The notes beneath the pieces are model-generated. The model saw only the letters and a program-made list of their open reading frames with translations. It was not told where the DNA came from and searched no databases. Source: an uncultured Sinobacteraceae bacterium (GTDB lineage Bacteria; Pseudomonadota; Gammaproteobacteria; Nevskiales; Nevskiaceae). From it: a DNA stretch of 64,000 bases. The position numbers were made by a program, and so were the translations under genes. Below are positions 18,227 to 60,879 of this stretch, piece by piece. Every line of letters starts with the position of its first letter. The first letter of the stretch is position 1. Location: assembly GCA_903822975.1 (NCBI GenBank), contig CAIJRD010000007.1:1-64000 (forward strand), in the 5' to 3' direction.

Positions 18227-20143
18227 TCAGAATCCATAACGCGCACTGAACGCGACGTAGTCGCGATCCGCCAGTGGTCTGCGCGTGTAATTGCCCGACC
18301 CCAGAAACGCGTTGTAGCTGAGGCTCAGGCTCAGTCGCTGCAGGTAGGTGAAGCTGGTGCCGAGACTGCCGCGGATGTCGCCCGGCCCGGCCAGCGCGCC
18401 GAAGCCGCCCAGCAAGGATGACTGGCCGAGCAGCACCCCTTGGACGTTCAAAGGTACCGTCAGATCCCAGCCTTCGAATACATTGCGCCGATCCACCGAG
18501 ATCAGGACTGAGGCGGCCGAAGCAGTCTTCGAATACGTCAGATCGCGCGACGTCACGCTCGGGTCCGGGCCGCTGACCGGATTCACCGAATTGACGTGGA
18601 TCGCACCGACATCGCCGACCAGCGTGATGCCGTCCCAGAACGGACCCGGATCGATCAGGTAGATCGCGTTCAGGTCGATCTGCGAAATCTTGCCCTTGGT
18701 CGGCGTCGGCACCGGCCCCAGCACGCCGGCGTTGACATCGACCAGCACCGGAATCTTGTCGCGATAGATGAGTTCGCCGGCAACACTCGCGCCGAACAGG
18801 CTGGTCGAGAAACTCGCCGCGGTCATGTCGACGCCGGCGAAGTGCTCCACCTGATAACTGATCGGCGTTTTCAGTCCGATTGCCTGGGTGGTGATCGCCG
18901 GGATCGGCCCCTGCGCTACCGTCAGCGGACCAAACCCGTAGGTAAACACCGGCACCGGGTTGGTGTCCGCATAGCGCAGGCGATACACGCCAACTTCGGT
19001 CTCGGTGGTGAGCTTGTATTTCAAGCCGACCGAGTACTGGCCAAAGTCACTGGGCAACACTTCGCCGGCATACGGTACGTTGATGTACTTCGGCGCGCCG
19101 AGAATGACGACGTTGGTTGCCGGCAAGTGAATCTGCGACAGCAGCGTCGGCGGCAGATTGATCGGCAGGTTGGCGGGAAGCCCGAACAAGCTGCCGACGG
19201 TTTGCAGCGCCTGCACCAGATCGTTGGACAGCGGATGGAAGCCGGCCAGATTGTTGGCATACAGCGGATTCCGTATTCCGTAGGCGAACTGCGCGCCGGG
19301 TCCGACAACGTCGGTGGAGGAAAAGTATTCGCCGACGGGATTCACTTCGGTCGCCTTGTAGGCCAGCTTGTACTGGCCCAACAGCGTGAAGCGCTCGCCG
19401 AGGCTCGCCGTCAGACCGATCTGGTTGACCGGCAGCAGGATGCTCTTGACGTCCGCGCCCGGCACGTTGGCGATGGCACCGTCGGCCGGCCCCTGCGCCA
19501 GCGAGATGCCGGAGAAGAACAGGCTTTCGCCCCAGGCGACCACCTGCTGGCCGACGCGCAGATTCACTGTCGCACTGTCACCGATATTCCAGGTGCCAAA
19601 TCCATAGGCATCGAGCAGCCGCGCACGGCGCCCGTCGAAACGTCGCGCATCGGCAGTGAAGCGATTGACGTTACCGGTCTTGTTGACGGTGTCGGGTGAG
19701 TTGTTGTCGTTGGCGTGAAAGTAAACGTTGTCGTAGAACGCGTCGCCACGCACCAAGGCGCCGTAGTTGTCGCGCTTGAACAGCAGTTCGCCGAGCAGCG
19801 ACAGGCGGTTGTTGATCAGCGAGCCTTGCTTGAAGTTGCGATCGCCGTCGTCGGAATTTGCACTACCCGGAACCTTGAGAAAGTCCGGCACTGGAATGCG
19901 CGGGTCCGGTGGCGCATTGATCAACTGCTTGCTCGGCGCTTCGACCCGAACGGCAGCGGCATAGGTCGCGCTCAACTCATACGCGGTGTTGACTCCGAAC
20001 AGATCGAAGCTGTCGCCCGCGAAGGCAGACGTGCTGGCGAGCGCCAATGCCGCAGCGCTCGCAAGCTTGAATCGATCGCGGACCTTCAACTGCGGCGCGA
20101 ACGCGCGCAGACCTCGCGACGCCGAGACTTTCCCCTGAGCCAT
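18227..20143 (-). CDS. DUF1302-family outer-membrane protein
   Basis: The 638-residue protein has a signal peptide (about 1-43, ending TSAFAG) and a long beta-strand pattern ending in VAFSARYGF, the aromatic C-terminus of an outer-membrane barrel. The opening DSFDLFGVNTAYELSATYAA and the RVGQQVVAWGESLFF motif are typical of DUF1302. These proteins almost always occur with DUF1329 proteins, and are suspected, not proven, to form a channel or acceptor for hydrophobic compounds. A strong ribosome site (AAGGGGGAG) precedes the ATG. It is the last gene of a minus-strand run after two DUF1329 genes. Confidence 0.88.
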   Translation of the reverse strand: MAQGKVSASRGLRAFAPQLKVRDRFKLASAAALALASTSAFAGDSFDLFGVNTAYELSATYAAAVRVEAPSKQLINAPPDPRIPVPDFLKVPGSANSDDGDRNFKQGSLINNRLSLLGELLFKRDNYGALVRGDAFYDNVYFHANDNNSPDTVNKTGNVNRFTADARRFDGRRARLLDAYGFGTWNIGDSATVNLRVGQQVVAWGESLFFSGISLAQGPADGAIANVPGADVKSILLPVNQIGLTASLGERFTLLGQYKLAYKATEVNPVGEYFSSTDVVGPGAQFAYGIRNPLYANNLAGFHPLSNDLVQALQTVGSLFGLPANLPINLPPTLLSQIHLPATNVVILGAPKYINVPYAGEVLPSDFGQYSVGLKYKLTTETEVGVYRLRYADTNPVPVFTYGFGPLTVAQGPIPAITTQAIGLKTPISYQVEHFAGVDMTAASFSTSLFGASVAGELIYRDKIPVLVDVNAGVLGPVPTPTKGKISQIDLNAIYLIDPGPFWDGITLVGDVGAIHVNSVNPVSGPDPSVTSRDLTYSKTASAASVLISVDRRNVFEGWDLTVPLNVQGVLLGQSSLLGGFGALAGPGDIRGSLGTSFTYLQRLSLSLSYNAFLGSGNYTRRPLADRDYVAFSARYGF

Positions 20144-20254
20144 CCGACTCCCCCTTGCATTCGAATCGCGCGGACGCTGCTTGGTCGCCCGCTTGCGTGC
20201 TACTTTTTCAGTACCGGACTCTGCGCCACTGTAAGCGGATCAACGCTGCGCCAG

Positions 20255-21625
20255 CTAGTGACCGCCCATCGCCGCACCCGTCGGCGAAAACATTTGCGGC
20301 GTCAAATTCGGATCGTCCAACTTCCACCAGTTCGCCCCGGCTTCGTTGACCAGGTAGCCGGCTTCGTATCCGCCGGACTGGAGGTCGTGGTAGATGCTGG
20401 CGCCACGGTGATAGCTTTGCGCATTCGGCGCGTAGCGGTAATTGATGAACGCCACGCGCCACAGCTCGCCGCGGTTGTCGTAGTTGTCGCCCCACACCGC
20501 CAACCAGGTGTCCTCGTCGACGTAGATCTCGCGCTTCTTGTAGATGTGGCGATAGCCGTCGCGCAGCGTCGCTTCGATCACCCACACACGATGCAGTTCG
20601 TAGCGCTCGTAGTCCGGGTTGATCGTATTGGGCGTGATCAGCGTGCTGTACTTCACCGATGGATCGTTGACCTTGAAGTTGTTCCAAGGAATGTAGATCT
20701 CCTTCTTACCGATCAGCTTCCAGGTGTAGCGCTTCGGCGGTCCGTTGAAGATGTAGTCGTCGTCGACGGTGCGCACACCGGCCGGCGGCACCGGATAGTC
20801 GCAGCAGACATCCGGCGCCTGGCGTACGCGCCGCGTGCCGGGAATGTATTGCCAGGCTTGCGTCGTCGCGGCGGAGAAATCGTTCGGCTGAATGCCCACC
20901 GCAACCGAGCCCTTGTCGCGCGGCGGCAGTAAGGATTCGTTGAGGAAGTAGGAGTTGATGCGGTCCTGCATCGAGCCGCGTACTTTCGGATTGGCGAACA
21001 CGCTCAGCGTGCTGAAGCGCTGCTTGCCCCAGGCGATCGTGCCGTTGCCGTAGACATCGGCAATGTCGTCGATGCAGGCATCCGACCACACGCGATACGG
21101 CAGGATGACATTCCAGATCGCCTCGGTGCCGTTCTGCGGAAACGGAAAGGGATGCGCACCCGTGGTGCCGGTGGCACCCAGGCCGTCGTGGATCACTTCG
21201 GATTCGACCGCATTCTTCTTGACGACCTCGCAGGCCCAGTCTGGCATGCGGAAATCGCGATGGCTCGGGTACACCAGCATCCGGTAGTTCTTCGGATACT
21301 TGGTCAGCATCGCCTTCTGCCCGGCGGTCAGGTGCTCGGCATACTTCGCCTGATTCTCGGACGTGATCGTGAACAGCGGCTTCTCGTCGGCATAGGGGCC
21401 CGGATCGTAGCCGTCGGCGCTCTTCATGCCGGGCCAGCTGTCGAGCCATTTGCCGCTGTAAGGCGCAACACCGCTCGCCGTACCTGCGCGCTCGGCACCC
21501 GCACAGGTGTACTGGCTGCCATTCAGCAGCGCCGCCTGCGCCGCGGGCACCTTCGCCTCGGCCGCACCGCCGATGACGCAACCGAACAACGCAGCCAACA
21601 GCACAGCAGCCGTCTTGCGCTTCAT
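20255..21625 (-). CDS. DUF1329-family secreted protein (copy A)
   Basis: The 456-residue protein starts at the ATG at 21625, which has a good ribosome site (AGGGGAG) and begins a signal peptide ending AEA; the longer frame to 21679 is unlikely. DUF1329 features are present: GAERAGTASGVAPYSG near the start, YPSHRDFRMPDWAC, and YELHRVWVIEATLRDG towards the end, followed by the conserved MFSP ending. Five or more cysteines in the mature part suggest disulfides. The fold has been compared to lipoprotein carriers such as LolB, which would suit binding of a hydrophobic molecule in the periplasm; that role is inference. It lies 111 bp upstream of the DUF1302 gene. Confidence 0.88.
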   Translation of the reverse strand: MKRKTAAVLLAALFGCVIGGAAEAKVPAAQAALLNGSQYTCAGAERAGTASGVAPYSGKWLDSWPGMKSADGYDPGPYADEKPLFTITSENQAKYAEHLTAGQKAMLTKYPKNYRMLVYPSHRDFRMPDWACEVVKKNAVESEVIHDGLGATGTTGAHPFPFPQNGTEAIWNVILPYRVWSDACIDDIADVYGNGTIAWGKQRFSTLSVFANPKVRGSMQDRINSYFLNESLLPPRDKGSVAVGIQPNDFSAATTQAWQYIPGTRRVRQAPDVCCDYPVPPAGVRTVDDDYIFNGPPKRYTWKLIGKKEIYIPWNNFKVNDPSVKYSTLITPNTINPDYERYELHRVWVIEATLRDGYRHIYKKREIYVDEDTWLAVWGDNYDNRGELWRVAFINYRYAPNAQSYHRGASIYHDLQSGGYEAGYLVNEAGANWWKLDDPNLTPQMFSPTGAAMGGH

Positions 21626-22133
21626 AGTCTCCCCTGAGCACCGCAGGCGTATCGGTGTCCGGACTCGCTCGCCGGGCACGATCGCGTTTGATCTAGTGCA
21701 ATGCTTATAGGACGCGCCGGACGCAACAGCCTCGTCCGATCAGAGTATGGCGCGATGCCCAGCCGCCGCCCTCAGGGTCGCATCGGCCGCCACAAGCTCC
21801 TCGCGATTCCTGGCGCATGACAGCTTGGCCTCCAAGGCGACCGCAGGCTCAACAATCGTCGTGACGGCGAGGATGACGACGACAACGGCCCCATCGAGTG
21901 CGCGCCGATAGTCAATCATCTCGGTCGATCATCTCGGTCGATTATCTCGGTCGATTATCTAAGTCGATCATCTCAGCCGATCATCTGAATCGATCGTCTC
22001 AGACGAAATCGCTGGCGTGCGCTCAGCTCGAATTCATTCGCTGGAGGCGTGTCCGAGCGCGATCAGCCTCGGTGTACACCCGGCGCGCACGCCCTATTTG
22101 CGCGGTGGCGTGCGCGCGGGATGCGCGTCGCGC
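21626..22133. other. Gap between the two DUF1329 genes
   Basis: This 508-bp stretch separates tandem paralogues and carries a 13-bp tandem array (21909-21999). No gene is supported. The copy A promoter must lie here unless copy B and A are co-transcribed. Confidence 0.45.
21909..21999. repeat. 13-bp tandem repeat, seven units
   Basis: Seven consecutive 13-bp units resemble GTCGATCATCTCG. The first four differ at one to three positions and the last three are more diverged. Each unit contains the near-palindrome CGATCATCTCG/CGATTATC. There are no indels, so the period is exact over 91 bp. Confidence 0.93.
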
Positions 22134-23582
22134 TCAGTGACCGCCGCGCAAGGCCGCGTTCGGCGAAAACATTTGCGGCGTCAGGTCATCGCGATTGAGT
22201 TGCCAACCGTGCTCGCCGGCTTCGTTGACCAGATAGCCCGCCTCGTACGCACCCGAGCTCAGGTCGTGATAGACCGACACGCCGCGGTGCCAGGCCTGCG
22301 CCTGTGGTGCGTATCGGTAATCGACGAACGCAGTGCGATACAGCGCGCCGCGCGCATCGTAGTTGTCCGCCCACAGCGCCGCCCAACTGTCCTCGTCGGC
22401 GTAGATCACGCGGCGCGCGTACAGGTGCCGCATGCCGGCTTTCAGCCGCGCCTCGATCACCCAGACGCGATGCAGCTCGTAACGCTGGTAATCCGGATTG
22501 AGCGTATTCGGCGTCAGCAACTGGCTGTACTTCAGGGCCGGATCGTCGATGCGAAAGTTGTTGTACGGCACGTAGATTTCGCGCTTGCCGAGCAGCTTCC
22601 AGTCGTAGCGCTCGGGCGAGCCGTTGAACATCGCGTCGTCATCAACCGTGCGCAGGCCCGATGGCGGCACCGCGTAATCGAACGCAATGTCCGGCGCCTG
22701 CCGCAGCCTTCGCGTGCCGGGGTTGTATTCCCAGACGCGCGTACTGCCGTCCTTGAAATCGTTCGGCTGGAAGCCGACACCGATGTTGCCCTTGTCGCGC
22801 GCCGGCGCCAGCGTCATCACGTTGAAGTAAGCCGCGACGGTTTCCTGCGTGGAGCCGTGCTGCTTCGGATCGCCCGACGGACTGAGTGTCTGGTAGCGCT
22901 GCTTGCCCCAGGTGATGTTGCCATTGGCGAACACATCGGCGATGTCGAGCGTCGCGGTTTCATTCCAGACATGGCGCGCGGCGAGCACGTTCCAGATCGC
23001 TTCGAGTCCGCTCGCCGGAAACGGAAATGGAATCTCGCCGGCGGTCGCGGCGATGCCGAGACCGTCGTGCACCAGGGACGCCGAGGCGGCGTTCTGCTTT
23101 GCGACATCGCAGGCCCAGTCCGGCGCACGGAAGTCGCGATGACTCGGATACACCGGCAACCGGAATGCGTTCGGATACTTCTGCAGCAGTGCCTGTTCAC
23201 CGTCGGTGAGGTGCGCGGCGTACTGCGCACGGTTCGCCGCAGTGATCATGAACAAAGGCTTTTCGCCGGCGTAGGGACCGGCGTCGAAGGCCGGCGCCGG
23301 TTTCATGCCAGGCCAGTCGGCGAGCCACCGACCGCCATAGGCGGCAACGCCGCTCGCGCTGCCGGCGCGCTCGGCACCGGTGCAGGTCAGCTGCGGGCCG
23401 TCGAGCTGTGCGATCTGCTCGGTCGTGGCCTTGGCCCAGAGCAAACCGGAACCTGCTGCGAGACCGAGCGCGAGTGCTGGTCGCAGTGCGGACCACTGCC
23501 CGGACCGCAGCACAGACCGCAGTACCGACCACAGCACAGACCTGTATGCAGCCGGGATCGAGTCGCGAATTCCAAATTTCAC
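22134..23582 (-). CDS. DUF1329-family secreted protein (copy B) with a repetitive signal peptide
   Basis: The 482-residue protein is a paralogue of copy A and shares GAERAGSASGVAAYGG, YPSHRDFRAPDWAC, NDFKDGSTRVWEYNPGTRR and the MFSP ending. I place the start at a GTG (23582) with an excellent ribosome site (GGAGGT, 5 bp spacing); the ATG-started frame to 23780 has no site and reads as junk. The unusual feature is residues 14-37, a tetrapeptide repetition (RSVL, WSVL, RSVL, RSGQ, WSAL, RPAL) encoded by a 12-bp DNA repeat, which forms the long basic N-region before the hydrophobic core (LALGLAAGSGLLWA). It is the first gene of the DUF1329-DUF1329-DUF1302 run. Confidence 0.87.
   Translation of the reverse strand: MKFGIRDSIPAAYRSVLWSVLRSVLRSGQWSALRPALALGLAAGSGLLWAKATTEQIAQLDGPQLTCTGAERAGSASGVAAYGGRWLADWPGMKPAPAFDAGPYAGEKPLFMITAANRAQYAAHLTDGEQALLQKYPNAFRLPVYPSHRDFRAPDWACDVAKQNAASASLVHDGLGIAATAGEIPFPFPASGLEAIWNVLAARHVWNETATLDIADVFANGNITWGKQRYQTLSPSGDPKQHGSTQETVAAYFNVMTLAPARDKGNIGVGFQPNDFKDGSTRVWEYNPGTRRLRQAPDIAFDYAVPPSGLRTVDDDAMFNGSPERYDWKLLGKREIYVPYNNFRIDDPALKYSQLLTPNTLNPDYQRYELHRVWVIEARLKAGMRHLYARRVIYADEDSWAALWADNYDARGALYRTAFVDYRYAPQAQAWHRGVSVYHDLSSGAYEAGYLVNEAGEHGWQLNRDDLTPQMFSPNAALRGGH
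23472..23543 (-). repeat. 12-bp repeat inside the signal-peptide coding region
   Basis: Six 12-bp units, for example CCGGACCGCAGC and ACAGACCGCAGT on the plus strand, encode six tetrapeptides of the copy B signal peptide. Because 12 is a multiple of three, unit gain or loss would change only the length of the N-region and leave the frame intact. Confidence 0.8.
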
Positions 23583-23662
23583 CTGAGACCTCCGTGTCGC
23601 AGGATCGAGAAGGCGTTGGATGTGAATGCAGACGGCCTTAACGCGCAGACGCGTGCGAGCGG

Positions 23663-24190
23663 CTAGCTGGCCACGGCCGCTGCACTCGACTCCGCCACGG
23701 CTGCAGGCATGCGACCGATCACCATCGCTTTCACCGCATCCGGTGCCAGGCTCAGCACCAGCAGCGAAGTGACCACGCATCGCGTGGCCTCAATTTTCCA
23801 ACCTTGCGCGGTGCGCCGGTATTCATCGTCGTAGTAGGCGCCGAGCTGGGTCAGACTGTTCTCGCGCGTATTGATCAGTTGGTAATGCAAACCCCAATGC
23901 GCCTTGGCCGTATCCGCGCCGGTCAGCTCGATCTGCGGATTGACGCCGTGATGCATCTCCACCATGTAGTCGTGGCAGCCGATCTGGCGAAACACTTCGA
24001 CCAGCGGATCGGCCCGATCGAAACTGCCGACCGCACCGAAATCGATCCGCGCCGGACCATCGACAAAGCACGCGCGCATCCCCGCCGGATCCTTGCCGTC
24101 GGCACTGGCGAGATAGCGCGCCTTCAACGCGCGGATCGCCTCCACATCTTCCAGCGCACGCAGTCGCCGCTCGAGTCCCGACAGGTCCAT
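23663..24190 (-). CDS. SnoaL-like/NTF2-fold protein
   Basis: The 175-residue protein matches the SnoaL_4 type: an N-terminal helix with ALEDVEAIRALKARYLASAD, the FGAVGSF strand, a middle HDYMVEMHHGVNPQIELTG segment and a W-Lys-Ile-Glu strand. The fold forms a cone-shaped pocket that in relatives binds or converts polycyclic, steroid or polyketide compounds; some are dehydratases or isomerases. Catalytic residues cannot be fixed from sequence. The ATG at 24190 has an AAGGAGGAG site. It lies 80 bp upstream of the DUF1329 copy B start and is probably in the same transcript. Confidence 0.85.
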   Translation of the reverse strand: MDLSGLERRLRALEDVEAIRALKARYLASADGKDPAGMRACFVDGPARIDFGAVGSFDRADPLVEVFRQIGCHDYMVEMHHGVNPQIELTGADTAKAHWGLHYQLINTRENSLTQLGAYYDDEYRRTAQGWKIEATRCVVTSLLVLSLAPDAVKAMVIGRMPAAVAESSAAAVAS

Positions 24191-24387
24191 TCGCTGCTCC
24201 TCCTTGGATTTATAGGCCTCCACTTCACGCGATTGCGCGCAGCAACGAATCCTCCATATGGCTGAGGTGCGGACATCCGACTACCTCAAACAGGTGAAGC
24301 CGGCGCCGGCGGCGCAAGGCTACTGTCGCCGCCACGACAGACACCGTTCGCGCCTCGATGCGCACGGTGCACATGCGAGGAGCGCAG

Positions 24388-25518
24388 ATGGCAGCGGAAG
24401 GATCAGTCGAACAGCGCGTCGAGAGCGGTCAGACCTGGGACGAGTTCTGCGACGCGCTGAAGCGCGCCGGTGCACAAATCCTGCGACCGGAAGCGCCGGC
24501 CGACGCGATGACGCGCGCCGAAGGCTGGCGCTACCTGACGCGCCTGCTGCGCATCGGCCTGGAAATGCATCTGGAATTTGCCGACCCGGATTTTCCAGGC
24601 TTCTTCGCGCCCTCGCACGAGACCGGCAAGATCGGCGCCGATAATCCGGACAATCTCTATCTGATGGGCCGCATCAACGGCCGCAATGAGTACGTGATTC
24701 GTGGCGAGCGCGGCAGCGTGCCTTACTTGAGTTTCGGCTCGCAGAAAGGCGGCTACGAAACCAATGGCCGAATGGAGCAAACCGGCTTTCTCGACGCTGC
24801 GCAATTGCAACTCGATGCCGAAGGTCATTTCGAGATCGTGCTGAGCGCGGAACCACAGAGCGGCAACTGGCTGCGCATCGAGCCGGACAGCAACGCGGTG
24901 ATCGTTCGTCAGACTTTTCTCGACCGCAAGCAGGAACGCCCTGCCCGGCTCACGATCGAGCGGCGTGGCGGCGACGCCAAACCCGAGCCGCTGTCTGCGG
25001 CGAAATTGCAGCAGGGTCTCGGCAATGCCGCGCGCTTCGTCGAAGGCACCGCAACCCTGTTCGCCAACTGGGCGCAGGGTTATCTTGCGCATCCGAACCA
25101 GTTGCCGCCGGCCGACCAGGCGCTATGCCAGCGCGTCGGCGGCGATCCCAATATCGTCTATTACCACTCGTACTGGCAGCTGGCCGACGACGAGGTCTTG
25201 ATTGTGCACGTGGCCAAAGTGCCGCGGTGCCGCTTCTGGAATCTGCAGATCAACAACTGGTGGATGGAGTCGCTCGACTACCGCTACTTCCGCATTTGTC
25301 ACAACAAGCATTCGGCGACGCTCGATGACGACGGCGGCGTCACGCTGGTGCTGGCGCATCGCGATACGGGTCATCCGAATGCGCTGGAGACCGCCGGACA
25401 CGATCGCGGCACGATGTGTCTGCGCTGGGTCGGCGCGGATGCTCCCGTGCATCCGACCACGCGCGTGGTCAAGCACGCCGAACTCGCCGCGGCACTCGCC
25501 ACAAGGGCAGTCGTATGA
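24388..25518 (+). CDS. DUF1214-domain protein
   Basis: The 376-residue protein has the DUF1214 ending: YYHSYWQL, the FWNLQINNWWMESLDYR block, then VTLVLAHRD and the RWVGADAPVHPTTRVV stretch. There is no signal peptide, so it is probably cytoplasmic. DUF1214 proteins are widespread next to hydrophobic-substrate degradation genes, but no activity is established. The ATG at 24388 has a GAGGAG site with 5 bp spacing; two upstream in-frame ATGs lack one. The stop overlaps the next start (ATGA). It is divergent from the SnoaL-like gene across a 197-bp promoter region. Confidence 0.86.
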   Translation: MAAEGSVEQRVESGQTWDEFCDALKRAGAQILRPEAPADAMTRAEGWRYLTRLLRIGLEMHLEFADPDFPGFFAPSHETGKIGADNPDNLYLMGRINGRNEYVIRGERGSVPYLSFGSQKGGYETNGRMEQTGFLDAAQLQLDAEGHFEIVLSAEPQSGNWLRIEPDSNAVIVRQTFLDRKQERPARLTIERRGGDAKPEPLSAAKLQQGLGNAARFVEGTATLFANWAQGYLAHPNQLPPADQALCQRVGGDPNIVYYHSYWQLADDEVLIVHVAKVPRCRFWNLQINNWWMESLDYRYFRICHNKHSATLDDDGGVTLVLAHRDTGHPNALETAGHDRGTMCLRWVGADAPVHPTTRVVKHAELAAALATRAVV

Positions 25519-26696
25519 ATCTCGAACAAAGTTTCGATGTGCCGCAGCTACTGGCCGATGCCCGCGCCGCGTGCAATGGCCTCGATGACTTTGGCGATGC
25601 CAGCTTTCGCCCGGCGCTCGAGGTGTTGTGCCGCGCCTTGATCGACGAAGCCAAATTGTCTGAAACCGGCGCCTACCTGTTGCGACTGAAGCTGCTCGGT
25701 CACTTGAGCAATCGTCTGCGCATCGAGGACTATTTCAAGCGCTATCCCGAGATCGCGCAGGAGACGGTCGCCGCACCGCTGGTGATTGTCGGTCTGCCGC
25801 GCACCGGCACGACCAAGCTGCATCGCTTGCTGTCGCGCGATCCGCGCTTCTACTGGATGGCGTTCTGGGAATCGCAGTTCCCGGTGCCGTTTCCAAACGA
25901 GACGCTGCAAAAGCCCAGCGCGCGAATCGCCGAAGCCGAATCGATGGTGGCGATGATGACCACCGCGATGCCGAAGCTGATGGCGATCCACCCGATGGCC
26001 GCCGAGGAAGCCGACGAAGAAGTAATGCTGATGGAGCATTCGCTGCTGTCGGCGTTCAATGCGTATGCCGACGTGCCCTCTTACATGCGCTGGCTCGATG
26101 CGCACGACCAGACGCCGGCCTACGCGTACCTGCGGCGCATGCTGCAATTCCTGCAATGGCAGAAGCGCCAGCGCGGCGTCACCGGCGAGCGCTGGGTTTT
26201 GAAGGCGCCGCACCACCTGCTGCGAATGGACCTGTTGCTGCGCGTGTTTCCGGGTGTGCAGGTGATTCAAACACACCGCGATCCGGTGCAGAGCATCCCG
26301 TCGATCGCCAGCTTCATCCACACGCTCTGGTGCATCTACAGCGAGCAGGCCGATGCGCACGCTGCGGGCCGCTCCTGGAGCGAGACGATGCAGCGTGCGC
26401 TGAACCATACAATCAAGGTTCGCCAAAGCGCGCCCAAGCAGTTCCTCGATGTGCGTTTCGAAGATACGGTCAAGCGTCCGCTCGAGGTCGTTCGCGCGAT
26501 CTATGCCTTCATCGGCTGGCCGCTGCAGCCGACCGCCGAGTCCGCCATGCAGGCCTGGCTGATCGAGGATCAGGCCAGCCATCAGGGCGGACACGACTAC
26601 GGTCCCGAACAGTTCGGTCTCAGCGTGGAAGGTCTGCGCGACGACTTCGCCGAGTACCGCCGCCGCCATCTGGCCGAATCGATCGCCGCGGCCTGA
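25515..26696 (+). CDS. PAPS-dependent sulfotransferase-family protein
   Basis: The 393-residue protein has the sulfotransferase P-loop-like motif GLPRTGTTK (93-101) that binds the 5'-phosphosulfate of PAPS, and the 3'-phosphate motif THRDPVQSIPS. It is of the Sulfotransfer_3 type common in Actinobacteria and Gammaproteobacteria, whose members act on small alcohols or phenols. No PAPS-synthesis gene lies in the window. Translation is coupled to DUF1214 by an ATGA overlap, so a joint role is likely: perhaps sulfation of a hydroxylated lipid-like substrate, which is inference. Confidence 0.87.
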   Translation: MNLEQSFDVPQLLADARAACNGLDDFGDASFRPALEVLCRALIDEAKLSETGAYLLRLKLLGHLSNRLRIEDYFKRYPEIAQETVAAPLVIVGLPRTGTTKLHRLLSRDPRFYWMAFWESQFPVPFPNETLQKPSARIAEAESMVAMMTTAMPKLMAIHPMAAEEADEEVMLMEHSLLSAFNAYADVPSYMRWLDAHDQTPAYAYLRRMLQFLQWQKRQRGVTGERWVLKAPHHLLRMDLLLRVFPGVQVIQTHRDPVQSIPSIASFIHTLWCIYSEQADAHAAGRSWSETMQRALNHTIKVRQSAPKQFLDVRFEDTVKRPLEVVRAIYAFIGWPLQPTAESAMQAWLIEDQASHQGGHDYGPEQFGLSVEGLRDDFAEYRRRHLAESIAAA

Positions 26697-26881
26697 ATCG
26701 AACCGTGCGGCCGCGACGAAGGATGACCGCGGCGATGAACCGTTTGCGACGCCCTGCACCTGCAGTCCGAAGGCGGCCCGTTCACTGCGCCCGACGTTGC
26801 GCCCCAACAACACGTCGTCTCACCACAGGCCTCTGGCCTGCCTGAGACGACCGCATTCATAACGACAAAAGGAGAATCGCA

Positions 26882-27673
26882 ATGCTACTGAAGGACAAGA
26901 TCGTACTGGTGTCGGGAATCGGGCCGGGCCTCGGTGTCAAGCTCGCGATTGAAGCCGCGCGTGAAGGTGCGTCGGCCGTCGTTGCAGCGGCGCGCTCGGC
27001 CGACAAGCTCGACGACGCCGAGCGCCGCGTGCACGCGGTGAATCCGCGCTGCCAGGTTCTGAAAGTCGTCACCGACATCACCGACCGCGCGCAGTGCGAT
27101 GCACTCGCTGCCGCCGCGAGCAAGGCCTTCGGCCGCATTGATGCGCTGATCAACAGCGCGTATGCGCACGGCGCGATGGATTACGCATCGACCGCCGATC
27201 TCGACAGCTGGAGCGAACCGCTCAATACCAATTTGCTCGGCACGCTGAAACTCACCCAAGCCGTCCTGCCGCAGATGAAACAGCAGGGCGGCGGTGCGAT
27301 CGTGATGATCAATACAATGGCTGCGCGCACCGTGCCGCCGCTCGGTGAAGCCGGCTATGCGGCGTCCAAAGCGGCGCTGGCGATGTCGGCGAAATTTCTC
27401 GCGAAGGAACTCGGGCCGTACAAAATCCGCGTGAACACGGTGCATATGGGCTGGATGTGGGGTGCGCCGGTTGAGGGTTACGTCAACTGGCAGGCACAGA
27501 CGACCGGTGTACCGGCCGAACAGATCAAGGCGCAGATCGCCGCGAATATTCCGCTGGGTGAAGTGCCGACCGACGACGACTGCGCCAAGGCCGCGTTGTT
27601 CATGGTGTCCGACTACGCGCGCGTCATTACCGGCGCTTCGCTCGACGTCAACGGTGGCAACTACATGCCCTGA
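26882..27673 (+). CDS. SDR-family oxidoreductase with a divergent active site
   Basis: The 263-residue protein has a Rossmann fold with a variant cofactor motif SGIGPGLG (11-18) instead of TGxxxGIG, LINSAY instead of NNAG, and the catalytic YAASK. The usual catalytic serine, about 13 residues before the tyrosine, falls in INTMAARTVPPLGEAG, where Thr or Met occupies the position. Such SDRs convert alcohols and ketones with NAD(P)(H); a weak or altered activity is possible. A good ribosome site (AAGGAG) precedes the ATG. It lies 185 bp after the sulfotransferase on the same strand. Confidence 0.88.
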   Translation: MLLKDKIVLVSGIGPGLGVKLAIEAAREGASAVVAAARSADKLDDAERRVHAVNPRCQVLKVVTDITDRAQCDALAAAASKAFGRIDALINSAYAHGAMDYASTADLDSWSEPLNTNLLGTLKLTQAVLPQMKQQGGGAIVMINTMAARTVPPLGEAGYAASKAALAMSAKFLAKELGPYKIRVNTVHMGWMWGAPVEGYVNWQAQTTGVPAEQIKAQIAANIPLGEVPTDDDCAKAALFMVSDYARVITGASLDVNGGNYMP

Positions 27674-27838
27674 AGGGGCGACTGCTTGTGCGGCCGATTC
27701 GAAACCGCACCCGACGGGCGACCGATTCGAAACCTGATTGGGGGTAGCCATTCGGGTGGCGATCGGGCGGCCCGCATCCATCGCGGCGGCGGCGTCGTAG
27801 AATGGCTCCGTAGTCAAGGAAGACAGGGGAGAAAGATC

Positions 27839-28555
27839 GTGGAAAAGGTCATGTATCTGGTCTGGCGCCAGCCGGGCCAGACTAGAGATGCGTTCGCACA
27901 GCGCTTGCGTACACAGCTGGCCGCACCGCTGCAGCTCGCAGGCGTTCGGGCATTGCAGGTGAACGTTGCCGATGCGGACGTGGAACCGGCGGCCAAGCTC
28001 AAGCAGACGCATACCGATCCGCCGATCGAGGCCATCGTCAGCGTCTGGGTCGACAGCGCGATCGCCCACCTGCGCGCGCCGGTGGATCGCATCATCGCCG
28101 AACACGGTCGCGCCACGGCGGCCTATCTGGTGACCGAATCCCAGCCGCTACGTAATAAGAAGCATCCGCCGCATATCGGCATGCGCACCGAAGGCTTCGC
28201 CCAGGTTGCTTTGTTGAAGCGACCTGCGCGGCTTGCGGCGCACGAGTGGCTCGACATCTGGCACAACCATCACACCCAGGTTGCGATCGAAACTCAATCG
28301 ACTTTCGAGTACACCCAGAATGTTGTCGTGCGCAGCCTGAGCGCCGGCGCACCGGTGTTCGATGCGATCGTCGAGGAATGCTTCCCGGCCACGGCGATGA
28401 CCGACCCCTACACGTTTTTCGACGCCCCCGGCGACGAGGCGAAATTCCAGCGCAATCTCGCACGCATGATGGACAGCGTCGGACGCTTCCTCGATCTCGG
28501 CACGATCGATGTGGTCCCGACCAGCCAGTTCCGGCTCTACTCGCAGATCGGATAG
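27839..28555 (+). CDS. EthD-domain protein, two EthD-like repeats
   Basis: The 238-residue protein seems to contain two dimeric alpha/beta-barrel (EthD) modules: the first near 1-100 (MYLVWRQPG) and the second near 110-225 (VALLKRPARLAAHEWLDIWHNHHT). The KRPxxSxEEFxxxWxxxH-like motif with conserved Trp-His is clear in the second. EthD proteins take part in degradation of ethers and other hydrophobic compounds, but their chemistry is unknown. I chose the GTG at 27839, which has GGGGAG upstream; ATG at 27851 is the alternative. It is the last gene of the DUF1214 run. Confidence 0.83.
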   Translation: MEKVMYLVWRQPGQTRDAFAQRLRTQLAAPLQLAGVRALQVNVADADVEPAAKLKQTHTDPPIEAIVSVWVDSAIAHLRAPVDRIIAEHGRATAAYLVTESQPLRNKKHPPHIGMRTEGFAQVALLKRPARLAAHEWLDIWHNHHTQVAIETQSTFEYTQNVVVRSLSAGAPVFDAIVEECFPATAMTDPYTFFDAPGDEAKFQRNLARMMDSVGRFLDLGTIDVVPTSQFRLYSQIG

Positions 28556-59377: not shown

Positions 59378-59691
59378 TGCCCGACTCCGCCTAAGCGCGC
59401 GGATTCTAACGCATGGCGCTGCCTTTAAGCTTTCAACGGTTCAAATCCGGCAACGATGACGATCGAAAAACTGAAGCATCCATAGCCGCGTCGCGAAGGC
59501 TTGAAGTAGACTGGTAGCGCTAAAGAATTCAAAGACGAATTCCGGCGACGGGCTCAATGCAGAGGCCAGCGTTAACAGGGATTCGATCGGTTCGGGGGTT
59601 GCGCAGGGTGCAAGCCATGCGCGATGAGGTGAAAACGAGGTCCGAGGCAAGCAGTGCCACGGCCTCATCATTGGGATATCCAAGGCTCGCT
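59378..59691. other. Divergent gap, no recognised gene
   Basis: The esterase-lipoprotein frame is open back to 59557 but this part lacks a ribosome site and signal peptide. The rest is unassigned. Confidence 0.4.
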
Positions 59692-60879
59692 ATGTTGATT
59701 CGTCGCACCGCCCCGTTCTGGGTCGGTTTGCTGGTGCTGATGCTGTGTGCTTGTGGGAGCAGTACGGTTCCTGATGTTGGCGGTACCGGCGGAACGAGTG
59801 GCGGAACCAGTGGCGGGACGACCGGCAGTACGACCGGTGGCAGCACCGACGGCGGCACCAGTGGCGGCGTTGGCGGCGGTCCCGATGTCGGCTCGACGAC
59901 TTACAATCCGTGCAACACCGGCGACTTCCCCTGGCAGGGTGGCTACGCCGCACTCGCGACGAGTTTCAGTTCAGTGCAGCTGGATCCCAGCACGCCCGAC
60001 TACAACCAGGCCGTGGTTCCAGCGTCATTCGACGGCACGCTTCTGCGGCCATCGGATACGCAAACTTATCCCGGCAAGCGCCCGGTCGTGATTATCGAGC
60101 ATGGCGAAGCCGGCGATCAGTGCAATATGTGGTGGCTGGCGCATGCCCTATCCGGTGCCGGCTACGTGACCCTGCTGGTGCAGCAGCCCAAGATCAGCCC
60201 GGCCAGCACCGAGGGCACCAGCATCGTGGCGATGGTGAGCGCGCTTCAGTTCATCGAATCGCCGGACAACCCCTACTCCTACTACATCGACACCAGCCGG
60301 ATCGGCCTGAGCGGCCATTCCGAGGGCGCCACCTCGGCGGCTTACGTGCAGGGTCTGCCGCTGGCGAGTTCGGTGCGCGCCATCGTCGCCTTCGACAATC
60401 TCAAGCACTACGTGCAAGGCGACACCGGCTCCGCGCTGATTGAATGCATCGCACCGAAGAAGTATCCGGTGACGCCGACCGTTCCGGCGCTCGGCTTCGC
60501 GCAGGACATGAGCTGTGTGGCGAAGCTCGCGGCGAACGGACCGGACATCAAGGAATCCGGCTGGTCGTGGTGGCTGCAGTCGGCACAGCCTTCGATCGAA
60601 CTCGTCATGAAAGGTTTTTCGCACCTGACGTTCACCGACACGATCGTGGTCGGTGGCAACAGCCAGCAGCTGCAAACCTTGGCGACCTACACGCAGGCCT
60701 GGTTCGATCGCTGGATTCAAGGCGACACGTCCGCAGACCAGACCTTGCTGTCCTGCACGGTGGTCAATCAGAACACGGTCGACGTGCTCAGCACCAAGTA
60801 TCTTTCCGGCGCCTATCTGCCGTCGCAGGGCACGCAGACCTCGGATTTCCGCACGCTACTGCAGCAGACCTGCCCCTGA
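59692..60879 (+). CDS. Lipoprotein with an alpha/beta-hydrolase fold
   Basis: The 395-residue product starts at ATG 59692 with a lipoprotein signal and lipobox LCAC (Cys21). A Gly/Thr/Ser linker (about 29-66, repeated GGT/GGS) tethers the catalytic part to the membrane. The nucleophile elbow is GHSEG (Ser209), and HGEAG near 137 is the likely oxyanion-hole motif. It resembles the platelet-activating-factor acetylhydrolase/dienelactone hydrolase type. A His near FSHLTF in the C-terminal third could complete the triad. Substrate unknown. Confidence 0.8.
   Translation: MLIRRTAPFWVGLLVLMLCACGSSTVPDVGGTGGTSGGTSGGTTGSTTGGSTDGGTSGGVGGGPDVGSTTYNPCNTGDFPWQGGYAALATSFSSVQLDPSTPDYNQAVVPASFDGTLLRPSDTQTYPGKRPVVIIEHGEAGDQCNMWWLAHALSGAGYVTLLVQQPKISPASTEGTSIVAMVSALQFIESPDNPYSYYIDTSRIGLSGHSEGATSAAYVQGLPLASSVRAIVAFDNLKHYVQGDTGSALIECIAPKKYPVTPTVPALGFAQDMSCVAKLAANGPDIKESGWSWWLQSAQPSIELVMKGFSHLTFTDTIVVGGNSQQLQTLATYTQAWFDRWIQGDTSADQTLLSCTVVNQNTVDVLSTKYLSGAYLPSQGTQTSDFRTLLQQTCP

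Follow-up and report, generated by a model that had tools for sequence, protein, structure and literature searches.

A conserved DUF1214, sulfotransferase and SDR operon in Nevskiaceae as a candidate sulfation module of aerobic steroid degradation

Which compound, and which pathway, is served by two gene runs that stand back to back, one with DUF1302, DUF1329 and SnoaL genes and the other with DUF1214, sulfotransferase, short-chain dehydrogenase/reductase (SDR) and EthD genes? This arrangement occurs in a stretch of 64,000 nucleotides (hereafter the window) of contig CAIJRD010000007.1, from the assembly GCA_903822975.1 of an uncultured Sinobacteraceae bacterium in the family Nevskiaceae. An initial annotation took the two runs for one module, in which the minus-strand run imports or displays a hydrophobic compound and the plus-strand run modifies it. 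Our analysis partly supports this module, and points to steroids as the probable hydrophobic substrate. The plus-strand run would be a sulfation module that depends on 3′-phosphoadenosine 5′-phosphosulfate (PAPS) and acts in aerobic steroid degradation of the 9,10-seco type, a reading to which we assign a probability of about 0.6 on the basis of sequence comparisons.

The DUF1214, sulfotransferase and SDR genes form a conserved operon, beyond a chance neighbourhood. Orthologs of DUF1214 (E < 1e-60) were found in 39 of the 58 Nevskiaceae genomes, with one genome that has DUF1214 fragments only (G003) counted as lacking the gene. We compared the DUF1214 neighbourhoods of 37 of the other 38 ortholog genomes (L056-L092); this set omits an ortholog on a 4-kb contig (G026) and three loci (L093-L095) where a distant DUF1214 (33-35% identical) has distant sulfotransferases alongside. 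In 36 of the 37 loci, the sulfotransferase and SDR genes lie on the strand of DUF1214, and the exception is a contig of 3 kb. The nearest named relative of the locus belongs to a metagenome-assembled genome of Nevskia, whose DUF1214 is 84% identical. A scan of named genomes, restricted to the best 80 of at least 555 DUF1214 relatives, yielded 20 Nevskiaceae and 60 loci from outside the family, namely from Pseudomonas, Cupriavidus, Burkholderia, Paraburkholderia, Ralstonia, Comamonas, Aromatoleum and others. Among these 60 loci, all have the sulfotransferase and 57 have an SDR of at least 50% identity, such that all three genes are present in 57; a 58th SDR match (L181) is only 33% identical and was not counted. 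EthD homologs of at least 50% identity lie within the neighbourhood in 20 of the 37 Nevskiaceae loci, and in some Pseudomonas and Comamonas loci an EthD-related gene (34-40% identical) sits between the sulfotransferase and the SDR. The nearest solved structure of DUF1214 is 6ans from Burkholderia cenocepacia, on which the family profile scores 584 bits and to which the fold matches with template-modelling (TM) scores of 0.91/0.95. In the proposed mechanism, DUF1214 and EthD would be binding or handling partners.

The catalytic motifs of both enzymes are intact. The PRTGTT loop and the HRxP...S loop of the sulfotransferase are invariant in the query and 94 homologs (of 96 loci examined; two translated homologs in the alignment contain a stop). 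Likewise, the GxxxGxG motif, Asn117, Tyr159 and Lys163 of the SDR are invariant in the query and 92 homologs, again of 96 loci. Some Sulfotransfer_3 proteins are annotated by fold alone, and the protein could in principle have a sulfotransferase fold that has degenerated or taken on another task and works without PAPS. The invariance of the PAPS-binding loop residues, together with the genes for PAPS synthesis described below, makes this highly improbable.

Outside the family, genes of PAPS synthesis adjoin the trio, and on this gene content a true PAPS-dependent sulfation module is very probable. CysNC, a GTPase joined to an adenosine 5′-phosphosulfate (APS) kinase, adjoins the module in 56 of the 60 outside-family loci, and CysD is found in 55 (41 and 14 with two query forms). 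A DHHA1-like protein, which scores 21.4 bits and thus falls under the Pfam cut-off, occurs in 43 of the 60 and may act as a phosphatase of 3′-phosphoadenosine 5′-phosphate (pAp), while a CysQ-like protein of the inositol-phosphatase fold occurs in 14. Further companions are a protein of the polyketide-cyclase fold, in 48 of the 60 loci, and a LuxR-like regulator, in 44 (GerE 22.9 bits, slightly under the cut-off). An APS kinase is also part of the operon in the closest relative of the window, where its gene is placed between those of the sulfotransferase and the SDR. In four Solimonas-type loci an APS kinase is divergent from DUF1214, and it is the only APS kinase found in the genomes concerned (G047-G050). 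The linkage extends to a plasmid of Tsukamurella (Actinomycetota), on which CysNC, CysD, a regulator, DUF1214 (29% identical), an SDR (36%) and a sulfotransferase (35%) are contiguous. Two Novosphingobium plasmids carry DUF1214 relatives near an annotated CysQ, and on one of the two a FadD3-type ligase and a steroid isomerase are neighbours as well.

The link to steroids comes from the distribution of KshA and HsaA. We surveyed 556 genomes, comprising the 58 Nevskiaceae, a sample of 299 from the family of Burkholderia aenigmatica (Burkholderiaceae) and one of 199 from the genus of Pseudomonas sp. Root71, a centre genome picked because it has the module. A strong KshA was defined as a KshA_C match with E < 1e-50, and weak matches (G019, G053, four Pseudomonas and nine Burkholderiaceae) were scored as lacking KshA. 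Over all three groups, a strong KshA was present in 87 of the 87 genomes with DUF1214 versus 34 of the 469 without. The Fisher tests for the separate groups ignore phylogeny, and gave 39 of 39 genomes with the DUF1214 ortholog versus 2 of 19 without for Nevskiaceae (9e-13), 44 of 44 versus 9 of 255 for Burkholderiaceae (4e-44), and 4 of 4 versus 23 of 195 for Pseudomonas (3e-4, or 0.002 minus the centre genome). Within Nevskiaceae, the present and absent states of DUF1214 and KshA are both found inside several genera. HsaA-like matches of at least 370 bits, none of which reaches the model cut-off of 450, occur in 51 of the 299 Burkholderiaceae and include all 44 DUF1214 carriers. Moreover, KshA was present in all seven named module-bearing genomes that were tested directly. 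Where the genes share a contig, the distance from DUF1214 to HsaA is 10.6-11.6 kb in 11 of 16 compared pairs, and that to the nearest KshA is 25-54 kb in the 16 genomes compared. The genome of the window has its own KshA on the same contig (C7:113629; a KshA_C match), beside homologs of KstD (596 bits, cut-off 788) and HsaA (373 bits, cut-off 450) that are both below the cut-off. Also beside it is a gene whose product shares 45% identity with the LuxR-like regulator found at the Pseudomonas module. Both this tracking of KshA and the PAPS genes elsewhere had been missed by the initial annotation.

In the proposed mechanism, the SDR would set a hydroxyl or keto group, and the sulfotransferase would move sulfate from PAPS to the hydroxyl of a steroid or of a product of ring degradation. 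The sulfate might solubilise, trap or export a toxic intermediate, or it might activate the hydroxyl for elimination. Alternatively, though rather unlikely in our judgement, the module would sulfate no steroid at all but an envelope lipid, a quinone, a surfactant or the like, whose production is merely switched on by the same regulation during growth on steroids. The sulfotransferase has 2zq5 as its best relative in the Protein Data Bank (PDB), next to 2z6v; we take both to be mycobacterial and 2zq5 to be Stf1, and another mycobacterial enzyme, Stf3, sulfates a menaquinone. In line with such a target, the fold matches of DUF1214 are without enzymatic precedent, and the Tsukamurella plasmid record contains no KshA match. 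In contrast, the tight tracking of KshA and HsaA, a common promoter site and a BaiE-like partner favour a compound of the steroid pathway.

The promoter site lies between the divergent SnoaL (start 24187) and DUF1214 (likely start 24388) genes, which are separated by 200 bp. The sequence CTACCTCAAACAGGTGAAGC (Table 1) marks a site that the window has in common with seven relatives whose divergent regions are short. A search for exact dyads among ten divergent promoters had no clear outcome, the best dyad being shared by 4 of 10 and those in shuffles by 2 to 3; the conserved site was first spotted by eye in the dyad output and then tested with a matrix, the first version of which was built from six of the window and relative sites. 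In 692,624 bases of Nevskiaceae loci, this matrix found 48 sites of at least 15 bits, five of them training sites. The 30 column-permuted versions of it gave 3.4 sites on average and at most 19. The site is found at the start of DUF1214 in 27 of the 37 Nevskiaceae loci and at SnoaL in 11 of 21. SnoaL and DUF1214 are about 1 to 5 kb from each other in six loci; both genes have a site of their own in five of these (L056, L061, L076, L077 and L078), and only SnoaL has one in L086.

The same site occurs at KshA. We scanned 21 KshA regions, from 20 KshA-bearing relatives (one copy each) and the window's own genome, with a matrix trained on the module loci of relatives only. The top match fell at the KshA start in 17 of the 21 regions, two of them very low-scoring, and reached at least 11 bits there in 14; the position of each start is an extrapolation from alignments, and three regions have the site overlapping it. 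For 200 permuted matrices, the corresponding means were 2.2 and 0.12 and the maxima 9 and 3 (any best match and at least 11 bits, respectively). In the window's own genome (435,612 bases scanned, window included), the only strong site is that of the window, with 32.0 bits. Five further sites reach at least 13 bits, versus 0 to 7 for permuted matrices, and the KshA site, with 14.5 bits, ranks third among these five; it precedes the open reading frame (ORF) start by 26 bases and the likely ATG by about 100. From this candidate operator we predict that both runs and KshA are under common regulation, with the two runs firing from one divergent promoter. The co-regulation of the runs, on which the initial annotation made the module idea depend, has sequence-level backing in a promoter site common to DUF1214, SnoaL and KshA.

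How far the minus-strand run belongs to the module depends on the gene. The co-occurrence of the two runs in related genomes, which the module idea likewise requires, was borne out by SnoaL (at least 50% identity), which in all 21 Nevskiaceae neighbourhoods that contain it stands upstream of DUF1214 in divergent orientation, and by DUF1302 (at least 30%), which lies within the 20-kb neighbourhood in 25 of the 34 loci longer than 15 kb. Own-genome density would predict about 0.08 DUF1302 genes per neighbourhood. Identity of these DUF1302s to the window copy ranges from 35 to 53%; the exception is one of 66% in L080, where a DUF1329 A relative of 80% also stands beside the module. For DUF1329 the picture is divided. 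A DUF1329 of at least 45% identity lies within 20 kb of the module in just 4 of the 34 loci; in contrast, close relatives of DUF1329 B (at least 67%) occur in seven other genomes, all on the contig of the module, 3 to 34 kb away. A DUF1329 B match with E of 1e-90 or better is found in 41 of the 58 family genomes, exactly the 41 with a strong KshA, and is absent from all 17 without. Because of this match, the DUF1329 subfamily belongs with steroid degradation, and more loosely with the sulfation module.

The two runs could instead be unrelated neighbours, the minus-strand run being one of many DUF1302/DUF1329 sets for lipid uptake and the plus-strand run a separate modification operon. Such sets alone are commonplace here, with 17 matches to DUF1302 and 14 strong ones to DUF1329 in the genome, and the gap of about 450-510 bp between DUF1329 A and B leaves room for another promoter. 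The scarcity of DUF1329 near the module, and of DUF1302s above 60% identity in loci other than L080, fits this view as well. We nevertheless consider it quite unlikely, given the excess of DUF1302 of some type over expectation, the constant linkage of close DUF1329 B relatives to DUF1214 and of their subfamily to strong KshA, and the always divergent SnoaL with its promoter site in 11 of 21 loci.

If the runs work together, the DUF1302/DUF1329 pair would provide the outer-membrane passage of the compound, by analogy with two systems in which a DUF1302 outer-membrane protein and a LolA-like DUF1329 partner are linked to the use or tolerance of hydrophobic substrates. AmeA and AmeB of Castellaniella defragrans concern tolerance of and growth on monoterpenes (PMC6394551), and PP_0765/PP_0766 of Pseudomonas putida concern the use of Tween 20 and are predicted to form a complex (PMC10866462). 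The window differs from AmeABCD by its two DUF1329 copies and by their divergence from a sulfation operon. Neither a YCF48-like AmeC nor an HAE3 RND AmeD was found among the window ORFs given to Pfam, which were not all of the ORFs; unlinked copies were not searched.

SnoaL resembles the bile-acid 7alpha-dehydratase BaiE. Its best sequence match in the PDB is BaiE 4l8p (E 2.5e-8), and the best fold match of its model is again BaiE (TM 0.75/0.83), followed by scytalone dehydratases and LinA and, lower, LdpA. Tyr37, Asp42 and His91 are invariant in 18 rows (the window protein and 17 of 21 orthologs) and align with site residues that we take to be Tyr30, Asp35 and His83 of BaiE. Identity to BaiE is about 25%, and the context of SnoaL is aerobic and proteobacterial. 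The column of another presumed site residue of BaiE, Asp106, holds Tyr114 in all 18 rows; because of this replacement we did not file SnoaL as BaiE. In the proposed mechanism SnoaL would be a BaiE-like lyase or isomerase on the same compound.

A special case of the steroid-sulfation reading follows from this likeness, in which sulfation activates the hydroxyl as a sulfate leaving group, whose elimination by the BaiE-like SnoaL or a different lyase desaturates a steroid ring or side chain. LinA and LdpA perform elimination chemistry, and CurM has a sulfotransferase that prepares a sulfate leaving group. CurM itself was matched at E 0.011, but unrelated TAL effectors score alike in that list. 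The invariant divergent position of SnoaL and its order of fold matches speak for this special case; its presence in only 21 of the 37 family neighbourhoods, with some SnoaL match in 10 of the 60 loci outside, and the invariant Tyr at the presumed Asp106 speak against it. To our knowledge, moreover, the known steps of the seco pathway need no such activation. Overall, we regard it as unlikely. A still bolder extension would give aerobic steroid catabolism a sulfated-intermediate branch, with a dedicated, PAPS-fed complex of DUF1214, sulfotransferase and SDR and a BaiE-like lyase that eliminates the sulfate (dehydroxylation of the ring or side chain), in cholesterol degraders of the Actinomycetota too; this is a long shot.

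Several results weigh against the proposed reading or weaken it. Besides the disregard of phylogeny in the Fisher tests, 23 of the 27 KshA-bearing Pseudomonas lack the module, and the module is therefore unnecessary for steroid degradation generally. The Tsukamurella record without a KshA match is a plasmid, and the chromosome was not searched. Among six annotated plasmid regions around DUF1214 relatives, the sulfotransferase is listed in two and not in four, although the tables are incomplete. No PAPS gene lies inside the module in this window, and just 5 of the 37 Nevskiaceae loci have one there. The genome does have an operon of CysC, ATP sulfurylase and DHH genes on contig C10, apart from the module. 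This operon is probably housekeeping, judging by the APS-kinase regions of 20 relatives. Behind CysC stands ATP sulfurylase in 12 of them, together with a DHH gene in 7 and with the sulfatase set in none; the KshA-negative genomes G033 and G011 are among those with this arrangement. The KshA form of the promoter site, by eye near TTCAYTCAAACGGRTGATGY, is a weaker relative of the module form, and outside Nevskiaceae the site is not in excess (8 matches versus 1 to 16 for permuted matrices). Finally, the low count of DUF1329 near the module and the single locus, L080, among those fetched that has a DUF1302 above 60% identity loosen the tie between the two runs.

The neighbourhood on contig C10, with CysC, ATP sulfurylase and DHHA1-like genes next to sulfatase, FGE-like, DUF1302 and DUF1329 genes, was considered as the missing PAPS half of the module and rejected as module evidence. 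As an observation in its own right, a CAPSR-motif sulfatase, a DUF1302, a DUF1329 and an FGE-like sulfatase-modifying gene stand there in a row on one strand (L101 5499-12149), a set in which a DUF1302/DUF1329 pair is tied to desulfation.

PAPS-dependent sulfation of steroids by bacteria has a precedent in the gut steroid sulfotransferases of Bacteroides, for which we know of no link to steroid degradation, DUF1214 or DUF1302/DUF1329. A second likeness is the Stf1 locus of mycobacteria, where sulfotransferase and oxidoreductase genes lie inside a steroid catabolic region and where Rv3531c is presumably a DUF1214 relative. A list of cholesterol genes includes Rv3529c, Rv3530c and Rv3531c, whose numbers fall between those of kshA (Rv3526) and hsaF (Rv3534c) (PMC6429209, Table 1). 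A passage in another source names Rv3529c as the sulfotransferase Stf1 and treats it as an immune modulator (PMC8882603). In a literature covered mostly without subscription journals, we saw neither bacterial steroid breakdown described with a sulfation step nor, at the level of titles and the beginnings of abstracts, this DUF1214/sulfotransferase module; the novelty is therefore provisional. If the steroid-sulfation reading is true, sulfation would be a step missing from the scheme of bacterial steroid degradation in Nevskiaceae and Burkholderiaceae, and four proteins without an assigned role, DUF1214, DUF1302, DUF1329 and the EthD-like protein, would have a pathway in which to be tested. The presence of the sulfotransferase and oxidoreductase within the mycobacterial cholesterol region might then be explained too, and sulfated products would affect the environmental tracking of steroid pollutants, hormones and bile acids.

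All eight genes with the domains named by the initial annotation are present at the places it gave, according to Pfam (Table 1), and the ATGA overlap of the DUF1214 stop with the sulfotransferase start is located at 25515-25518.

Table 1. Features of the two divergent runs, with positions in the window.
Feature	Position	Strand	Support and remarks
DUF1302, predicted outer-membrane barrel with signal peptide	18227..20143	-	PF06980, 412.7 bits
DUF1329 A, LolA-like exported partner	20255..21679	-	PF07044, 365.6 bits; likely start near 21625
DUF1329 B	22134..23780	-	PF07044, 376.4 bits; conserved part 22137-23330; true start uncertain
SnoaL_4 NTF2-fold protein	23663..24187	-	SnoaL_4, 77.6 bits
Candidate operator, conserved promoter site CTACCTCAAACAGGTGAAGC	24281..24300	+	Between the two runs
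DUF1214 protein	24388..25518 (ORF from 24358)	+	Pfam, 25.0 bits, exactly at the cut-off of 25
Putative PAPS-dependent sulfotransferase, Sulfotransfer_3	25515..26696	+	131.6 bits, cut-off 27
SDR oxidoreductase, PRK07890 subfamily	26882..27673	+	332.8 bits, cut-off 258
EthD-like protein	27851..28555 (ORF from 27686)	+	PF07110, 38.5 bits; likely start near 27851

The likely start of DUF1214 was read from the sequence as an ATG behind GAGGAG, and the true start of DUF1329 B is placed further in because its ORF overlaps the SnoaL gene. Against the LolA_like model, DUF1329 A scores 28.7 bits, under that model's cut-off. NCBIfam gives a name to the SDR alone of the eight proteins, and no useful PDB match was found for EthD. 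Selenocysteine in DUF1214 orthologs, suggested by an in-frame TGA, was rejected: the TGA is an ordinary stop near the gene end that the alignment overruns. This check covered loci shown in the gene's own strand, and opposite-strand loci were uninformative.

The Nevskiaceae neighbourhoods contain other recurrent genes. A flavin reductase of the p-hydroxyphenylacetate-hydroxylase/HsaB kind, under the model cut-offs, occurs in 24 of the 37 and wax-ester-synthase-type genes in 16; a putative TesG-like aldolase occurs in 7 and a putative TesF-like acetaldehyde dehydrogenase in 6, names that derive from Pfam. Other Nevskiaceae have a set of acyl-CoA synthetase, DUF1302 and flavin reductase genes close to the module; the genome of the window has a similar set on a different contig, C9 (L105 6553-11714). 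Stagnimonas and Solimonas relatives (L059, L060, L063, L072, L073 and L075) have a second DUF1214 gene (50-52% identical) in the same run, adjoining the SDR or EthD. In L131 and L136 the module is reordered, with the SDR and a polyketide-cyclase-fold gene past CysNC rather than after the sulfotransferase. A histidine kinase with a DAHL domain and a response regulator, sometimes duplicated, lie near DUF1214 in 17 of the 37 Nevskiaceae loci, as a candidate sensor of the module, and are absent from the window; in L060 (2500-8300) they stand between SnoaL and DUF1214. On C7 of the window's own genome (L115 10475-13732), three SnoaL-fold genes lie between KshA and a molybdopterin oxidoreductase gene, with a LuxR-like gene among them. 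Elsewhere in the window, positions 59557-60879 give a weak match to PETase-like hydrolases (26.6 bits versus a cut-off of 28).

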